A DNA stretch of 35,865 nt from Spirochaetaceae bacterium (GTDB lineage: Bacteria; Spirochaetota; Spirochaetia; B11-G9). Positions 1,635-35,865 of this stretch are shown here, piece after piece (the first letter of the stretch is position 1; the number at the start of each line of letters is the position of its first letter). The stretch covers positions 1 through 35,865 of the forward strand of contig DAOWEB010000035.1 in the NCBI GenBank assembly GCA_030638735.1, written 5' to 3'. Position numbers and translations under genes: made by a program. The notes beneath the pieces were generated by a model. That model was not told where the DNA came from. It ran no database searches and saw only the letters and a program-made list of their open reading frames with translations.

Positions 1635-2927
1635 TTACCACCTATTTTGTGTCGGTACATCTATTATTTTAACCGATTTTTTCTTTCTGTCAAGTCTGGA
1701 TCTCTGAATAGCCAAAGAACATGCATAGCGGATACTATCAATACTATGGTTGTCCTTGTCCGGAAACTTACTTATCACTTCCCCTTGTCGGTTCACTTCA
1801 AGGGCATAATTGACAAATTCCTTTGCGGATAATGGGCATCGTACAGGGTCAATAATTATCTCCTCAAGATCTTGAAGCCATTTTACACCATGATCAACGC
1901 TCCCAGGACCTTTCTCTGCACCTGTGATTTTTAGCCCATGATCTTCTCTTAGTTCATCAATGCTCTTAGGTTCTGCTTTGTCCGCCATAGTTAATTCTGT
2001 TTTTTGTTCTTCTGACAACATTTCTGCAAATTCTCTGTTTTTTATCCCGTGTCCTGAAATCTCATCGAATAGGAAAAGCTGATTCCGCTTAGAATCGTAG
2101 TGCATTTGCTCAAAGCAAAGAGGATCCGCTGCATAACCAAAATCAAGCCCCTGATATATGTTATCAAAATAAGACATATCGTTTTCTGTAATTGTTCTGA
2201 TTGTAACATTGTTAAATATTTCTAATCCTGTCCCGACCTCTTCACCTAAATATTCATGTTTATAAGCCATTTCATTAACATTTTTTAAATGCTCTGCCTC
2301 TGCAACAAAACGCTCCCCCAGCCATTCAAGGGGAACTTCTCTATAATCTGAGTAATGAACAGTCCTACCAACTTTTGACGCTTTGCTTTCCATATTTGCC
2401 CATGATCTGGCAGACTTTGGAGGGTTGTAAGAGTAGAAACTTATCTGTTTTTTTGTCGTACCTCTGAAAAGAGACTGTAATATATTTCTTATTTCTCCCA
2501 TACCAGGGAACTGATCAACCTCTTCAAACCAACAAAATTTCACATATCCGGTTCCGAGATTAATAGATTTTATCTTCTGCGGATTATCAGCACCTTTGAA
2601 TATAATAATTTGACCTGTAGGAATATATGTAATCTTATATGGGGAAACATTAAACCTGAAAAGCCCTGCAACACCAAGTTTATTAGCTGCCCATTTGATC
2701 TGACCAAAGACAGAATCACGTATTTCATTTTCATATCTTCGGAAGATTACAGCGTTTGCTTCAGGATCTTTTATAATTCCGAGAATTATCTCTATAGAAA
2801 TGAAAGAGGACTTTGTTGATCCTCTTCCACCTCTAAGCCAATATTCAATAAAATCCTCTGTTGATATCTCGTTATGTAGATCATAAAAATTGGAAGCGAT
2901 GCAGTCAGATAGCTTAATATCTATCAA
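1635..2927 (-). CDS. terL: Terminase large subunit (TerL), PBSX/Terminase_3 type
   Basis: This is the ATPase-nuclease motor that pumps phage DNA into the prohead through the portal and cuts the concatemer. The 430 residues show the two expected domains. The ATPase has Walker A GGRGSTKS (33-40), Walker B with catalytic acids KFCWFEEVD (130-138) and coupling motif FYSYNPP (164-170). The RNase H-fold nuclease has candidate metal ligands D262 (GLDFGYAADP), D316 (TMADKAEP) and D397 (NHSIDSIRYA). The start is TTG at 2927-2925: it follows a perfect AAGGAGGG six bases upstream and gives a 4-base TTGA overlap with the preceding spike gene. Complete, no defects seen. Confidence 0.95.
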   Translation of the reverse strand: MIDIKLSDCIASNFYDLHNEISTEDFIEYWLRGGRGSTKSSFISIEIILGIIKDPEANAVIFRRYENEIRDSVFGQIKWAANKLGVAGLFRFNVSPYKITYIPTGQIIIFKGADNPQKIKSINLGTGYVKFCWFEEVDQFPGMGEIRNILQSLFRGTTKKQISFYSYNPPKSARSWANMESKASKVGRTVHYSDYREVPLEWLGERFVAEAEHLKNVNEMAYKHEYLGEEVGTGLEIFNNVTIRTITENDMSYFDNIYQGLDFGYAADPLCFEQMHYDSKRNQLFLFDEISGHGIKNREFAEMLSEEQKTELTMADKAEPKSIDELREDHGLKITGAEKGPGSVDHGVKWLQDLEEIIIDPVRCPLSAKEFVNYALEVNRQGEVISKFPDKDNHSIDSIRYACSLAIQRSRLDRKKKSVKIIDVPTQNRW

Positions 2928-5212
2928 ACATGCCCTCCTTCACACCATTTCGTGTAATTAGCTTCGAGTGCCATAAGATCAAAGTTAGAACCAGATAGAA
3001 CACTCATATTTATTGAAATTGCAATGAAGTCTGGAGCACCTCCATCTCTTCTTGATAACACTCCTGATACATCTAACAAAAAGGTATAAACCTCAATTTC
3101 TCCTACAACCACGGCTCTTGATTCTGAAACTGACTGTTTTCCTGGTAATAATCCAGGATCTGAAGTATATGCTATATCTCCCTCAGTCACCCAATCATAG
3201 GCTATTGTTATTTCTACAGTTCCCGTCCCTGTTGGCCTCCCTGCAATTATAAATTCTATGGGTGATGATGTATCAAGATCCAATGGTGCAAAGAAATACC
3301 TTCCTATATAACTAGTTGTGGTGATAAATCTATTTTCAATTAAACCAGCTGCAACATTTAGATTGATCCATATAGATTGATTTTGTACCGTTCCCGCAAA
3401 TGCCCTGTCACCTCCAATAGAAAGAGGTAGTTGACCAATAGGACGAGCACTACCAAAATACTCAATCCATCCGTCTGAATTTAATTCAGATCTATTTGTG
3501 TGCAATTTGAATTGTTCAAATATTGGTGCTGTAGTTACTGCAGAATCAATTCTAAGTCTTATCCAATAATAATTAGTACCTAAAGACATTGGATCATTCT
3601 TAACCCATCCATTAGTCGCTAACTGACTATCATATCTAATATGCTGACTTCCGATATTTTCAAAGTATTTGTTGGCATGGGGTAGATATTGTCCACCGGA
3701 TTCTACTTCCATACTTGGAACTTCTGTCCATGCTGCTCCATCCCAATATTCAATTATAATACTCCCTGCCCCTTTCACAGCTGCTGTTAATACACTTACT
3801 TTTATTCCAAAGTGCTCCAAATAGTCAGTCCCATCATTTAAAATACTAGCAAGATATATAGAATTATCTGCTGCTATCCCAGGAAAAGTGAAAGAGGATC
3901 CGCTTGAACTTCTTGCTTCATCACTTACATCTACAAAAGCACCAAGAGTAGTTTCCGTATAAACTATCATTCCATTTGTGTAGGAATCGCCACCACCAAA
4001 GACTGACTCTGTGGGTCTTGTCGGAGTTCCTACATGTAATTCTCCAAAAACATTAAGACCTTCGTCTCCCTCTGTTGTATCTAATAAATATGCAAATATT
4101 TCTGCCCCTGGGATAATAAAAGATTTATTCAATTGTGTGTAACCATTCCCTAGTACAGTTACATTGGGATTAAGAATATTAAAATTGAGATTTACACAAT
4201 TGATTATTGTTGTAGCAAACAGCGACAGGTTAATTCCTGTACCAACATTTTCAATCCGGAAACCATCATTGAAACAATTCTGTATTTTTACAGCATCAAA
4301 CTCTACAATTGTGTCATTTCCATAAACAACTAGCCCATCAGTGCATAACCCTATAAATAATGCTGTGCCTAATGTTTTGGAACCGTCAAAACATTTTATT
4401 GCTGTGTGCATCCCAGGTGTTGCCGCAATCATATTATGAATATTTACAAAAGAATCTGTCCCACTTATACTTATTCCGGTAGTAACTTTAGCTGTCCCCC
4501 TGAAAGTGATTTCATCAAGCGTAGCTGCCCCAGCTACTATATTTATTGCATTTATGGTGATTGTTCCCGCTGGATTATTTATTGCTAAAACTTTAATCTC
4601 AAATAAAGCTGATGCATTGTTTAGAATAAATCCATTTGAACAATCCCTAAGAACACAATCTTGTATAAAAGTACTTCCTAATCCTTCATGCCTGACAATA
4701 TAACTTGTTCCAGTGTTGCCAGAAAATACAATACCTACAAGATGAGAAAAGGTATTTCCTAAAAACATATCTTGTGCAGGATCTTTCGGGGTAAATGTAA
4801 CCGATCTTAGTCCTGTAGATGATATATTACAATATGATTTTAACTGCAAGGCTCCAGCTGTATTGTCTACCTCGTATAATCCAGGCGCTACAGCAATTGT
4901 ATATCTGTTTGTTGATGAATTATCTGTGATAAAAGCAAGAGCCTCTTCAATAGTTGTAAAATCACCACCAGATTTAGCAACAGTGATCAAATTATGTAGC
5001 GGTTTTTTCAGTTCTGCAACTTCACTTGTTAGATCATTTGCCCTTGACTCTATTGCAAAAAGAGCCTGTGAGCTGTCTGTATCATCTTCTGGTATAAGCC
5101 TGTTAATATATTTTATCAATCGCTCAAACTGAACAAGAGTGTCATGGTCATTAATGAAAGAAGATAATTGTTTTCTTGTTAATTTTAATTTATCGTTAAT
5201 TGGAAAAGCCAT
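2924..5212 (-). CDS. Virion-associated beta-helix spike (pectin-lyase-like), 762 aa
   Basis: Probable receptor-binding or surface-polysaccharide-recognising virion protein. The first ~75 residues (MAFPINDKLKLTRKQLSSFI onward, then a coiled stretch) resemble N-terminal adaptor regions of podovirus structural proteins. From about residue 78 (ITVAKSGGDFTTIEEALAFI) begins a right-handed parallel beta-helix of the pectin-lyase fold, running to about 360. Later come beta-sandwich-like segments (IIIEYWDGAAWTEVPSMEV and a C-terminal jelly-roll-like region). No catalytic residues could be assigned. It lies between small and large terminase, an unusual place for a spike, and is the second spike of this genome besides 23591-25543. 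The gene ends inside the terL start; its own start follows the zinc-ribbon gene by one base. Confidence 0.75.
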   Translation of the reverse strand: MAFPINDKLKLTRKQLSSFINDHDTLVQFERLIKYINRLIPEDDTDSSQALFAIESRANDLTSEVAELKKPLHNLITVAKSGGDFTTIEEALAFITDNSSTNRYTIAVAPGLYEVDNTAGALQLKSYCNISSTGLRSVTFTPKDPAQDMFLGNTFSHLVGIVFSGNTGTSYIVRHEGLGSTFIQDCVLRDCSNGFILNNASALFEIKVLAINNPAGTITINAINIVAGAATLDEITFRGTAKVTTGISISGTDSFVNIHNMIAATPGMHTAIKCFDGSKTLGTALFIGLCTDGLVVYGNDTIVEFDAVKIQNCFNDGFRIENVGTGINLSLFATTIINCVNLNFNILNPNVTVLGNGYTQLNKSFIIPGAEIFAYLLDTTEGDEGLNVFGELHVGTPTRPTESVFGGGDSYTNGMIVYTETTLGAFVDVSDEARSSSGSSFTFPGIAADNSIYLASILNDGTDYLEHFGIKVSVLTAAVKGAGSIIIEYWDGAAWTEVPSMEVESGGQYLPHANKYFENIGSQHIRYDSQLATNGWVKNDPMSLGTNYYWIRLRIDSAVTTAPIFEQFKLHTNRSELNSDGWIEYFGSARPIGQLPLSIGGDRAFAGTVQNQSIWINLNVAAGLIENRFITTTSYIGRYFFAPLDLDTSSPIEFIIAGRPTGTGTVEITIAYDWVTEGDIAYTSDPGLLPGKQSVSESRAVVVGEIEVYTFLLDVSGVLSRRDGGAPDFIAISINMSVLSGSNFDLMALEANYTKWCEGGHV

Positions 5213-6504: not shown

Positions 6505-8973
6505 ATGAATGATGTTTTTGAAGCCGCAAGAAATAAAATAGGAGCTGGTTTAATTCATTCCTTCTTTAATTCTGAAGGCTCATATAGTAGGGCAGGTGAA
6601 TATTATATTTTGTCACCTTTAAGAAGTGATCGTAATGTTGGATCTTTTCATATCAATGAAGAGACTGGACAATATTATGATCATCAAACTGGAGAAGGTG
6701 GGGATTTTATAGATCTGGTTTCTAAAGCCAGAGGGGTAAATTCGAAAGAAGCAGCTGAGCATATTTTAAATGAATCAGGCGGTATATTTATAAATCCTGA
6801 TACTTCTAAGAAAAAGCATAAAAATAAGAAAGATTTAATACCTCCGCAAATTCCTATTCCTGATACTGCTGAAATAAAAGAATCTTTAAAGAAACGAGTA
6901 AAAGATCAATGGTGTCTGGATAACTGGGGTAAGGCTACAAGTATAAGCCGATATTATAATAAAGACGGAGGATGGTGTTTTGTTGTATGTCGTTTTGAAA
7001 TGGAACAAAAAGTAAAAGGCAAGAAGCGCAAGAAAAACGACATATTATTTTATTTGGGAACTGATAATAAATGGCAGACAAAATGGCATGATGATTTAAA
7101 GCCTTTTCCTCCTTATGGTATTGAGAAAATCAAAGATAATAATTTACCTGTTTTAATTGTGGAAGGTGAAAAATGCGCAAGAGTAGAAGTCCCTGGATAT
7201 AATGTTATTTCATGGATCGGTGGAACTTCCAATATGGGAAAAACAAATTGGAACCTGTTAAAAGGTCGGGAAATTATAATATGGCCTGATACCGATTCAG
7301 AACTTGATAAAAATAAAGAGTTCTTCCTTCCCAGAGAATTACAATCAGGGATGAAAGCAGCATATTATATTAAATCTCAATTATCGACTTCAAAAATATT
7401 AGATATCTATAAAAATAAACCTCTTGAAGATGATCCCCACGGATGGGATATTGCTGATTTTGTAGAGGAAGGTGGGGACCCTTTAAAGTTTATTGAAGAG
7501 TTTACTCCTTATAATTCTATATCTGTTCAAATTGATCCTTACCAGGTTTACCGGAAATTCATAGAAAATTATTATGATCATGATAGCTTAGAACAATCAT
7601 CCGGAGGATTCTGGAATTATTATGAGGATGAACACTTCTGGAGAAAAACTACTAAAAATGATATTTTATGTAATTTTCAAAGATGGCTTGAAGATACTGG
7701 CCTGCAGTGGGTAATAGCAAAAAAGCAAAAAGCAACAACATTTATAAATGATACAAAACAATATTTAGATCGTCATTCCCTGGGGTATGTTGGAAATAAT
7801 CCTTTTAAAGATTCTGCAATTTCTCCATATATTCATTTTAACAATGGAGCTATTCATATTACTAAGGATAAAATTGAATGGTTCGAACGGATTAAATATG
7901 GTGAAGATTTCTATAAAAAACTGTATCCAGTCCATTGTCTTGATTTTGATTATGACCATACAAATTATAATAATATTGATCCAGAAAAAGACGCACCCGC
8001 ATTTTATTATTTTATAAAGGAATTAATACCTCATAAATATTTTGAGAGATTAAATAAAAAGGATAAAATAAAATCAATAAAAGATACACTTATTTTTATT
8101 AGCCAGATAATAGCTTATTCACTTTCTCCAGTAAAACCAAATGAATACTTTTTCGGTATTTATGGCAAGCAAAGAACTGGTAAAAGTTTTCTTCTTGATA
8201 TAATTAAATCTATTATAGGAAAGGAATTTTGTGTTGAAAAGCCTATTACAGATATGGAAAACCGTTTTGCCTCTTCTGGATTATGGGGTAAAAAGGTATT
8301 TATTGAGCCTGATTTGAAAACCAGAAAGATGTTACCAGAGGCATTTATTAAAGCATATGCAGGAGAACAGACAATTACAGTAGAAGAGAAAAATATGCCT
8401 GCAGTCGATGGGGTTAATATTAGTATGTCAATGTTCTTTGTATCTAATTATGAATTCCATACAAAAGGGCTTGAAGGATTAGCCCGCCGGATGGTTATGG
8501 TTCCATATAAGAATAATATTAAAAAACATGATACCAGATTACTTGATAAAATTTTAGGTAAATATCCCCATGGTGAAGAATCAGAAGAATTACAAGATAA
8601 AACTTTTGACGAACGTCCGGCAATAGTTGCCCTTACTATGAGGGCATGGGAGAAGTTTTGTGATAATGATTTTATTATGCAAATCCCTGAATGGGCTCAG
8701 AAAGAAAAAGATATCTGGTTAATAGAGTCCAACAGCGTTGTTAAATTTATGGAAGAAAGATATTACAACCAGGCTTATACAATGTCTGTAAAAAGAAAGG
8801 AGATTTATGATCAGTATAAAGAATGGTGCGAGGAAGAAGGGCGCAAACCATTAGGAAAAAAGAATTTTTATGAAGATGTCCGCATGGATGAAAGGATTAC
8901 AGAGACCAGAATCTTAGGTGCTGAGAGTTTCAGAATAGAAATAACCGGAAATGAGGATGATATACCATTTTAA
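6505..8973 (+). CDS. Primase-helicase fusion: TOPRIM-type primase + SF3 (D5-like) helicase, 822 aa
   Basis: Probable replication initiator that unwinds and primes phage DNA. The N-terminus (about 15-95, with YYILSPLRSDRNVGSFHI and YDHQTGEGGDFIDLV) resembles the DNA-binding region of phage primases but lacks the usual zinc cysteines. A TOPRIM-like module follows: VLIVEGEKC (216-224, E220), IIIWPDTDS (257-265, D262/D264) and GWDIADF (313-319). The C-terminal half is an SF3-type ATPase: Walker A YGKQRTGKS (553-561), Walker B KKVFIEPDL (596-604), motif C-like MFFVSNYE (643-650) and LARRMVMVP (659-667). The last residues, NEDDIPF, copy the C-terminal tip of bacterial SSB. No phage polymerase is present, so host Pol III must extend the primers. 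Confidence 0.85.
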   Translation: MNDVFEAARNKIGAGLIHSFFNSEGSYSRAGEYYILSPLRSDRNVGSFHINEETGQYYDHQTGEGGDFIDLVSKARGVNSKEAAEHILNESGGIFINPDTSKKKHKNKKDLIPPQIPIPDTAEIKESLKKRVKDQWCLDNWGKATSISRYYNKDGGWCFVVCRFEMEQKVKGKKRKKNDILFYLGTDNKWQTKWHDDLKPFPPYGIEKIKDNNLPVLIVEGEKCARVEVPGYNVISWIGGTSNMGKTNWNLLKGREIIIWPDTDSELDKNKEFFLPRELQSGMKAAYYIKSQLSTSKILDIYKNKPLEDDPHGWDIADFVEEGGDPLKFIEEFTPYNSISVQIDPYQVYRKFIENYYDHDSLEQSSGGFWNYYEDEHFWRKTTKNDILCNFQRWLEDTGLQWVIAKKQKATTFINDTKQYLDRHSLGYVGNNPFKDSAISPYIHFNNGAIHITKDKIEWFERIKYGEDFYKKLYPVHCLDFDYDHTNYNNIDPEKDAPAFYYFIKELIPHKYFERLNKKDKIKSIKDTLIFISQIIAYSLSPVKPNEYFFGIYGKQRTGKSFLLDIIKSIIGKEFCVEKPITDMENRFASSGLWGKKVFIEPDLKTRKMLPEAFIKAYAGEQTITVEEKNMPAVDGVNISMSMFFVSNYEFHTKGLEGLARRMVMVPYKNNIKKHDTRLLDKILGKYPHGEESEELQDKTFDERPAIVALTMRAWEKFCDNDFIMQIPEWAQKEKDIWLIESNSVVKFMEERYYNQAYTMSVKRKEIYDQYKEWCEEEGRKPLGKKNFYEDVRMDERITETRILGAESFRIEITGNEDDIPF

Positions 8974-8984
8974 AAGGAGGCAAT

Positions 8985-9248
8985 ATGAGCGATAAAATCT
9001 ACATCGGAAAAGGTAAAGTAACAGGCAATTATGGTAATATAAGTATTACCCTTGGGCTTGATGGATTCGGTGAAATCTATAAAAAACATGGATTTGAGAC
9101 TAAACAGAAATCTAAAAAGCTGAAAATTATTATTTCCGAAATGAGACAGGCTGATAATTACGGAAATACACATACTTGCTATGTGGACACATGGAAACCA
9201 GACAGCGCCGGAAACGGTAATCTTGATTCAGGAGGGGAAACATTTTAG
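8985..9248 (+). CDS. Small hypothetical protein of the replication operon (87 aa)
   Basis: Strong ribosome site AAAAGGAGG before ATG 8985, eleven bases after the primase-helicase. Predicted mostly beta (VTGNYGNISITLGLDGFGEI, KKLKIIISEM), then CYVDTWKPD and a flexible Gly/Ser-rich acidic end finishing GGETF. The VDTWKP-type ending occurs in small early proteins of other phages as I remember them, without known function. A single-stranded DNA-binding or replication-accessory role would suit the position and the loose tail, but no motif proves it. Confidence 0.65.
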   Translation: MSDKIYIGKGKVTGNYGNISITLGLDGFGEIYKKHGFETKQKSKKLKIIISEMRQADNYGNTHTCYVDTWKPDSAGNGNLDSGGETF

Positions 9249-9855: not shown

Positions 9856-10632
9856 ATGAAGGCGTATAAAGTATTTAATCCAGATTGGACATGTAGAAGT
9901 TTTCATTACAAAGTAGGTGAAACTTATTCTATAAAAGAAGATCCTCAGTTATGTAGTTTGGGGTTTCATGCCTGTAAAAAAGCTGTAGATTGTTTTGATT
10001 ATTATAAATTTGATCCTAAAAATAAAGTTGCTGAGGTTGAATTATTAGGCAAAATTGAGGGTCTTGACGATGATAAACAGGTAACCAATAAAATCAAAAT
10101 AATTAGAGAAATTCCATGGGGTGAATTATTGGAATTAGTAAACAGCGGCAAAGATAATACTGGTAAAAAGAACAGCGGAGACCGGAACAGCGGATACCTG
10201 AACAGCGGATACCGGAACAGCGGAGACCGGAACAGCGGAGACCGGAACAGCGGAGACCGGAACAGCGGAGACCTGAACAGCGGATACCTGAACAGCGGAG
10301 ACCTGAACAGCGGATACCGGAACAGCGGATACCTGAATTCAAAATCACCAGCCAAAAGTTATGCTTTTAATAAACTTTTGGAAGAATCAGAATTACAAAA
10401 AATATTACATTCAAGAGGATTTAATATTTTAATGAGATTCAGACTTGTTAAATATAGAGTCAGAACTAAAACTGGTAAGTTTGGGGATTATAGGTATATC
10501 TCTTATAAAAAATCATGGAAATATTTATGGTCTACTCTTTTAATTCAGGAAAGAATTGCTGTATCAGAAATTCCTCATTTTGATAAAAATGTATTTTTTG
10601 AAATAACAGGAATAAAAGTTATTGTAAAATGA
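9856..10632 (+). CDS. Phage early protein with NSG(D/Y)(R/L) pentapeptide repeats (DUF7666-like), 258 aa
   Basis: The N-terminal ~95 residues (MKAYKVFNPDWTCRSFHYKV, then CSLGFHACKKAVDCFDYY and NKIKIIREIPWGELLELVN) match a widespread phage family of unknown function that I know as DUF7666-like. Next comes a run of eleven near-identical five-residue repeats (about residues 106-160), likely a repetitive beta-rich rod, then a ~98-residue basic helical/beta C-terminus. In related proteins the N-domain is also followed by N(S/T)G(D/N)W-type repeats. First gene of the unit driven by the promoter at 9796; it overlaps the next gene by ATGA. The repeats are far more GC-rich than their surroundings. Molecular role unknown. 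Confidence 0.75.
   Translation: MKAYKVFNPDWTCRSFHYKVGETYSIKEDPQLCSLGFHACKKAVDCFDYYKFDPKNKVAEVELLGKIEGLDDDKQVTNKIKIIREIPWGELLELVNSGKDNTGKKNSGDRNSGYLNSGYRNSGDRNSGDRNSGDRNSGDLNSGYLNSGDLNSGYRNSGYLNSKSPAKSYAFNKLLEESELQKILHSRGFNILMRFRLVKYRVRTKTGKFGDYRYISYKKSWKYLWSTLLIQERIAVSEIPHFDKNVFFEITGIKVIVK
10171..10335 (+). repeat. Eleven 15-bp in-frame tandem repeats varying at only two bases
   Basis: Units start every 15 bases from 10171. Each is AACAGCGGA(G/T)ACC(G/T)G. The two variable bases change codon 4 between Asp and Tyr and codon 5 between Arg and Leu. All other bases, including silent positions, are invariant. Order of codon pairs: DR, YL, YR, DR, DR, DR, DL, YL, DL, YR, YL. A degenerate unit (about 10141-10170) precedes and AATTCA ends the array. 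Confidence 0.95.
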
Positions 10633-35160: not shown

Positions 35161-35865
35161 TCAGTTTTGGAGCATGTCCAAAACTGCTTTTGCCTGTTCA
35201 ATCTCTATATCAGAATAAACTTCTGCGGTTTTTGCTTGATTCAGCTCTGTTTTAGACATACTCTCAAGAGTACTTACCCTTGCTTTGGCGGCGTTTGCTT
35301 CTGCCTCTTCAGCCATTGCATTAAGAGCTTTATCCTGTGCGTTTGTCTCTTCGGCCTGCGCTGCCATCATTTCCGCTTCTTCTTCAGTCGGTTTGATAAC
35401 TCCCATAGAAACAAGTTTTTTCCTAAAATATTCCCGAACTTCTGCGATCCCATCCCCTTCCATGTTCATCATTGCCATTGCCTGGAGAACCTGAGCCGTT
35501 TCTGGATCGGTTGTCATCTGCATCATTCCTGTTAAAGATTTGACTGTAGCCTCTCTTTGGGTTGTAGAAGATGGTCCAACATCAACTGCAACATCAAAAG
35601 TAGCTTCGGTTATATCGTTCTCATATACATTTTTGCCTTTGTCAGTTATTATAGGTTTTTGTAGTTCTACTGTTCCTGTTTCTCCCATAGTCCCGATGGT
35701 CTTCATCATGCGACCTTTTTCCACATAAACATCTTTGGCCATTGAAAGCCAAATTTCACCAACACGGCGGATTGTTTTTGCAAAGTTTGACATATAAATA
35801 AATGCTTGGCCGTCTATTTTTTTCTGGATCATCTCAATAGCTTTACCGGAAATATTGGAAACAAT
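35161..35865 (-). CDS. Portal protein, P22 gp1-like (C-terminal part; joins 1..1434)
   Basis: Same gene as 1-1434, entering at the right end of the window. 35724-35161 supplies the last 188 codons including TGA; 35725-35865 repeats bases 1-141. This part holds the end of the wing/stem region (FAKTIRRVGEIWLSMAKDVY) and the C-terminal helical barrel, rich in Ala, Glu and Met (EEEAEMMAAQAEETNAQDKA; AEEAEANAAKARVSTLESMS). A weak hairpin (about 35131-35153) lies between it and the scaffold gene. Confidence 0.9.
   Translation of the reverse strand: MVSNISGKAIEMIQKKIDGQAFIYMSNFAKTIRRVGEIWLSMAKDVYVEKGRMMKTIGTMGETGTVELQKPIITDKGKNVYENDITEATFDVAVDVGPSSTTQREATVKSLTGMMQMTTDPETAQVLQAMAMMNMEGDGIAEVREYFRKKLVSMGVIKPTEEEAEMMAAQAEETNAQDKALNAMAEEAEANAAKARVSTLESMSKTELNQAKTAEVYSDIEIEQAKAVLDMLQN
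35725..35865. repeat. 141-bp terminal direct repeat, right copy
   Basis: Identical to bases 1-141; removing one copy gives the circular unit. See the left copy for its meaning. Confidence 0.93.

Follow-up and report, generated by a model that had tools for sequence, protein, structure and literature searches.

The C-terminal peptide of bacterial SSB proteins (SSB-Ct, DDDIPF in E. coli) is acidic-hydrophobic and is carried on a flexible and variable linker. The T7 gp4, a phage primase-helicase with a DnaB/RecA-type helicase, works with a polymerase of its own phage. Its acidic tail, which ends in a Phe, binds a replisome partner at a basic patch and is the nearest precedent for the tip described here. 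A pocket for the SSB-Ct has been described in DnaG and other partners, and the pockets of ExoI, RecO and PriA are alike in character (PMC5872125). The SSB of phage HK620 ends in NDYPPF, and the loss of its last six residues abolished Sak4 binding to SSB-covered DNA (PMC5928155); here a phage SSB-like tip recruits a partner, but the carrier is a genuine SSB and the partner a phage protein. A search confined to the open-access literature returned no description of an SSB-like tip on a phage helicase-primase.

The window analyzed here, a DNA stretch of 35,865 nucleotides, is a contig (G000:C258) binned in a Spirochaetaceae genome of 431 contigs with 6.83% contamination, and its host assignment follows from that binning. 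It encodes phage terminase, portal, capsid, scaffold, connector and DNA-ejection proteins, a DEAD/ResIII helicase and a RecE/YqaJ-like exonuclease. The shared direct repeat at its ends and a portal gene that crosses their join make it probable that the contig represents an entire phage genome, circular or terminally redundant and about 35.7 kb long (Table 1). No match to a DNA polymerase was found in the 17 listed ORFs of at least 200 aa, scanned apart from the N-terminal portal part at the window start, which supports the earlier view of a genome lacking its own polymerase. Like T7 gp4, the window protein is a phage primase-helicase, but its helicase is of the SF3 type, no polymerase was found beside it, and its tip has the SSB form IPF.

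Table 1 Coordinates of the features discussed, in the window unless another locus is named.
Feature	Position	Strand	Remarks
Direct terminal repeat, 141 bp	1-141 and 35725-35865		Portal gene across the join
762-aa protein between the terminase genes	2927-5212	-	No PHROG or significant Pfam match; tail-spike beta-helix-like by eye
Primase-helicase, 822 aa	6505..8973	+	N-terminal half resembling a degenerate DnaG zinc ribbon and a toprim domain; C-terminal half an SF3/D5-type helicase, then a winged helix (Pox_D5) and a disordered tail
Pox_D5-like winged-helix region, residues 741-791	8725..8877	+	Pfam; final Pfam domain ahead of the tail
Last eight residues, 815-822 (GNEDDIPF), including the tip	8947..8970	+	pLDDT below 50
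SSB-type C-terminal tip DDIPF	8956..8970	+	Translation; homologue conservation; identical to host SSB tip
87-aa protein directly downstream of the primase-helicase	8985..9248	+	Ends NLDSGGETF
DUF7666 and pentapeptide-repeat protein, early region	9856-10632		
VapE helicase with tip, split system, L450	1511-2938		
VapE helicase with tip, split system, L495	1498-2913		
VapE helicase with tip, split system, L502	4940-6382		

The domain composition sets the protein apart from both groups of known tip carriers. Pfam matches to DUF5906 at residues 552-653 (42.1 bits against a cut-off of 27.6) and to Pox_D5 (25.6 bits against 21.4) provide the helicase core and winged helix of the D5-like SF3 phage primase-helicases, and an SF3 relationship is likewise seen to the SaPI5 primase-helicase (7ola), by sequence and by fold, and to poxvirus D5, by fold (D5/E5 chains). 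In the N-terminal half, sub-threshold matches to Zn_ribbon_DnaG (20.0 bits, cut-off 24.9) and to DUF6371 (residues 203-263, the toprim-like region) are accompanied by fold matches of the AlphaFold model to DnaG (2au3, 1d0q), the model being built from a shallow alignment of eight sequences, with a mean pLDDT of 70 and weak in the ATPase core. Relatives of the protein are assigned to DNA primase families in PHROGs. The labels of primase and SF3 helicase given in the preliminary description are thus right in outline, the N-terminal half being toprim-like and degenerate DnaG-like. No cysteine is present in residues 31-91 (6595-6777), the DnaG-like zinc-ribbon region, and the zinc site therefore seems to be lost. 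The Pfam matches include neither an SSB family, and hence no OB-fold SSB domain, nor DnaB_C, the RecA/DnaB-type helicase domain of the T7 gp4 family, unlike those of a gp4-like protein at locus L122 discussed below. While the DDIPF end, its acidic-hydrophobic character and the flexible, variable linker are common to the SSB-Ct and the window protein, the tip is here borne by an SF3 helicase-primase, which is neither an SSB nor T7 gp4.

Translation confirms that the protein ends in ITGNEDDIPF, followed by TAA, and the NEDDIPF end follows the SSB-Ct pattern of C-terminal acidic residues and then hydrophobic-Pro-Phe. In the AlphaFold model the helices and strands reach residue 811, with a final strand at 806-811, and the tip, whose burial would have spoken against the earlier proposal, is predicted to be disordered and exposed.

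A single-sequence search with the primase-helicase in viral contigs and genome contigs returned no relatives, which were instead obtained by a search of genomes across the phylum and by alignment-based searches (A2, A3). One full-length relative was found in the genome set (L303 in G514, 42% identity), ending in LQEEIPF, where the SSB of its own host ends in SDDDIPF. Six further ones come from viral contigs, giving eight sequences with the window included; viral locus L354, with the same match values, length and LQEEIPF ending as L303, was counted once. The remaining endings are EEDEIPF (L348), HEDEIPF (L349), TNEDIPF (L353), DDDVIPF (L357), DDDDDIPF (L358) and ITDEDDF (L352), the DEDDF of the last being nearer to the T7 style. 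A terminal Ile-Pro-Phe is accordingly present in seven and a terminal Phe in all eight, although these are not eight independent events, as L357 and L358 are near relatives that form one cluster at 90% and separate into two at 95%. Right-aligned, the mean pairwise identity is 0.75, 0.75 and 1.00 at positions -3, -2 and -1 and 0.04-0.14 at positions -12 to -6, and the tails extend 15 to 30 residues past aligned column 868. The expectation of a conserved tip behind variable sequence is thereby borne out, and the full-length homologues, which might have lacked an acidic-hydrophobic end altogether, keep IPF in all but one case. In 200,000 rounds of shuffling the last 24 residues of each sequence, never more than two of the eight ended in [ILV]PF. 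The tip is missing from L390 (ending GSGHED) and L487 (ending YNEKDD), two homologues that are more distant and match only weakly in the C-half.

The genome into which the phage contig was binned has two SSB genes. The housekeeping SSB, whose flanking ORFs by eye resemble ribosomal proteins S6 and S18, ends in GPENFEDDIPF, and its last six residues, EDDIPF, are identical to those of the primase-helicase; the second SSB ends in SEEDLLEAI and is without a tip. Given this identity, the conservation over a variable linker and the predicted disorder, the earlier reading of the tip as a copy of the SSB C-terminal peptide holds well, and the tip is very probably a selected docking peptide. Co-variation between phage and host SSB tips is suggestive in G281 only (SSB EDDVPF, D5 primase DDDVPF) and is not seen in the f9 genomes, where primases end in NDEIPF, NDEVPF and YDAIPF versus DDQIPF or DDDIPF in the main SSBs. 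A tip on the primase is compatible with the presence of a phage SSB: in the phage of L348 both the SSB and the primase are tipped, so that the primase tip is no simple substitute for a missing SSB tip, and in the record of L354 an SSB ending in ENNIPV lies beside the tipped primase.

The tip is also enriched on phage replicative primases and helicases relative to neighboring phage genes. From 173 loci, 168 with an N-half homologue ending inside the locus were retained (L373, L398, L417, L452 and L463 were dropped), forming 133 clusters at 95%, with 1372 non-overlapping neighboring ORFs of at least 100 aa as the background. A strict tip, defined as an [ILVM]PF end with two or more acidic residues among the final eight, is present in 14 of the 133 primase clusters and in 7 of the 1372 neighboring ORFs (Fisher p = 6e-11, such p-values being only a guide, given the dependence among homologues and the presence of some non-genes among the ORFs), and in 9 of 62 primase clusters at 50% clustering. 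A looser form, acidic plus P[FLI], occurs in 32/133 and 10/1372, respectively. Three SSBs and one VapE helicase (L502) are among the seven strict background ORFs, and the ten loose ones comprise three SSBs, of which L392 and L416 were recognized by eye and L470 through a PF00436 match in its record, along with three SF3 helicases of the VapE type that are 471-480 aa long (L450, L495, L502) and four others (L388, L426, L512, L517). That the tail is due to chance or neutral drift is a most improbable reading: in its favor, most of the distant primase homologues are tipless, with 119 of the 133 clusters lacking the strict form, but the conservation profile, the shuffles and the enrichment strongly disfavor it.

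Each of these three VapE helicases lies directly behind a separate primase ORF without a tip (3/3 of the split systems noticed), so the tip goes with the helicase when the two activities are split. This suggests a job at the fork and weighs against a decoy function, in which the tips would titrate host SSB-binding nucleases and repair helicases off the phage DNA. Such a decoy could exploit the likeness of the ExoI, RecO and PriA pockets (PMC5872125), but a replication enzyme would make a poor sponge, and the idea is very unlikely to be right.

The SSB-type tip is found outside the primase-SF3 family as well, on DnaB-type, AEP and T7 gp4-like phage replication proteins. Across 394 genomes of the class, a survey of DUF5906 proteins gave 75 rows, of which 68 with readable ends were kept, the window being counted once (L169, L179, L182 and L188, with truncated ends, L155, G176:C29 and one G036 row were dropped). 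Seven of the 68 have the strict tip, in three groups: the window, L206 (DDDVPF) and five proteins of one genome family (NDEIPF, NDEVPF, YDAIPF), of which the two scanned (L191, L195) are VapE-type; the 130 background ORFs of this survey gave two tips, namely the window primase read again and the host SSB. The D5 primases L007, L012 and L137 of the same genus are without the tip. Scanning viral contigs for GAY-GAT-ATH-CCN-TTY-TAA gave at least 120 stretches. At least 118 of them form the in-frame end of an open frame, and among the matches listed these frames mostly encode small proteins, many SSB-like by eye. In the 120 listed contigs, 2 of 635 other long ORFs carry the strict tip: the DnaB-type helicase L054 and the AEP primase L058. 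In the DnaB-type family (75 of 77 loci readable; one of the six search peptides lay within the query's own tail linker) the strict tip is present in 27 of 56 distinct C-termini, with others ending in PF plus one or two residues; in the AEP primase family (L608-L687) it is present in 16 of 41, with a PF end in 39, both families having been picked because one member had the tip. With DnaG-like/SF3, VapE SF3, DnaB, AEP primase and T7 gp4-like carriers, at least five kinds of proteins are concerned, and it is conceivable, if somewhat doubtful, that SSB mimicry is a general and repeatedly evolved phage replication device, which draws SSB-reading host factors to the fork enzyme.

The gp4-like carrier, L122, is found among the matches listed in the same scan. 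This T7 gp4-like primase-helicase ends in FENEDDIPF and is followed by a PolA-like polymerase gene. In its family (L212-L291, 77 of 80 loci readable), the SSB-like tail ENEDDIPF is present in five near-identical copies, the next relatives have T7-like acidic tails ending in F (ENEDVLF, ENEETLF, DNEKSDF), and in more distant relatives the terminal residue is not F. Within L212-L291 the tail thus switches between SSB-like and T7-like acidic-Phe forms. Such mixing, the PolA-like gene next to L122 itself and the DEDDF end of L352 would fit a direct tether, in which an acidic tail with a terminal Phe binds a polymerase or other phage replication protein and resembles the SSB-Ct since both bind basic-hydrophobic patches. 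The T7 gp4 tail is the model for it: two basic patches of gp5 are bound by this tail, which needs its acidic character and terminal Phe to do so (PMC12593628, PMC12230644). A tether of this type is nevertheless rather unlikely for the window protein, because the conservation extends beyond acid plus F to IPF, six residues match the host SSB end, and no polymerase was found in the window; DNA_pol_A, the one polymerase family searched there, is also in none of the seven homologues' records, which may be fragments. The window agrees with the proposal that the tip suits a genome without a polymerase, but tips are not restricted to such phages, as L122 with its PolA-like neighbor shows.

Relatives of the 87-aa protein bear the same tip: the one at L349 (8867-9154), behind the tipped primase, ends in DEDDIPF, and that at L101 (7806-8153) in NDDIPF, and the window copy seems, from its sequence, to have lost the tip except for the terminal F. 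With a best PHROG match at E 0.11 and a predicted structure of mean pLDDT 42, in which the fold is not predictable, the protein possibly represents a new small replication-accessory family. Its tipped relatives and the C-terminal, predicted flexible position of the primase tip would suit self-regulation, in which the tip would fold onto a basic surface, either on the helicase-primase or on the 87-aa neighbor, and so gate loading or the binding of DNA, as an SSB tail does with its own OB fold; weak binding of the SSB tail to the DNA-binding site of the same protein has been mentioned (PMC5928155). This nonetheless leaves unexplained the match to the host SSB and the sharing of the tip by unrelated helicase and primase families, and appears quite unlikely.

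It is rather likely, then, that the SSB-Ct mimic acts by putative docking and recruits an SSB-binding factor of the host to the phage helicase. The mimic would sit on a short flexible tail behind the winged-helix domain and dock in the hydrophobic pocket, rimmed by basic residues, through which host genome-maintenance proteins bind SSB. SF3 helicase rings are hexamers, and a ring would display several tips at the fork and could attract the host factor in places without SSB-coated DNA. Pol III chi, which the preliminary description named first among the partners, is unlikely and was rejected for this host: it was found in none of eight genomes (the host's genome, G514 and six genomes from the host's genus or family), with E. 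coli and Caulobacter detected as positive controls, versus seven of the eight for PriA. For the same reason the tip is unlikely to touch the polymerase directly, and the route to the replisome would be indirect. Of the residues that we take to line the PriA pocket, the Gln is kept in an alignment of the host PriA and the Arg is not at the aligned position. The most plausible factor would be PriA or another SSB-binding protein leading to host replisome loading, and its recruitment would serve a phage that has a primase and a helicase and no polymerase. With the T7 gp4 tail and the HK620 SSB tip as precedents, the tip probably works like an SSB-Ct.

To our knowledge, it is mostly an open question how the host replisome is taken over by phages that have a helicase-primase and lack a polymerase, and a tag copying the host SSB signal would give a simple handle on such takeover, down to a single terminal Phe. 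If the mimicry proves true across families, these phage proteins would join SSB itself as a second class of SSB-Ct carriers, and phage-host replication partnerships might become predictable from C-termini.
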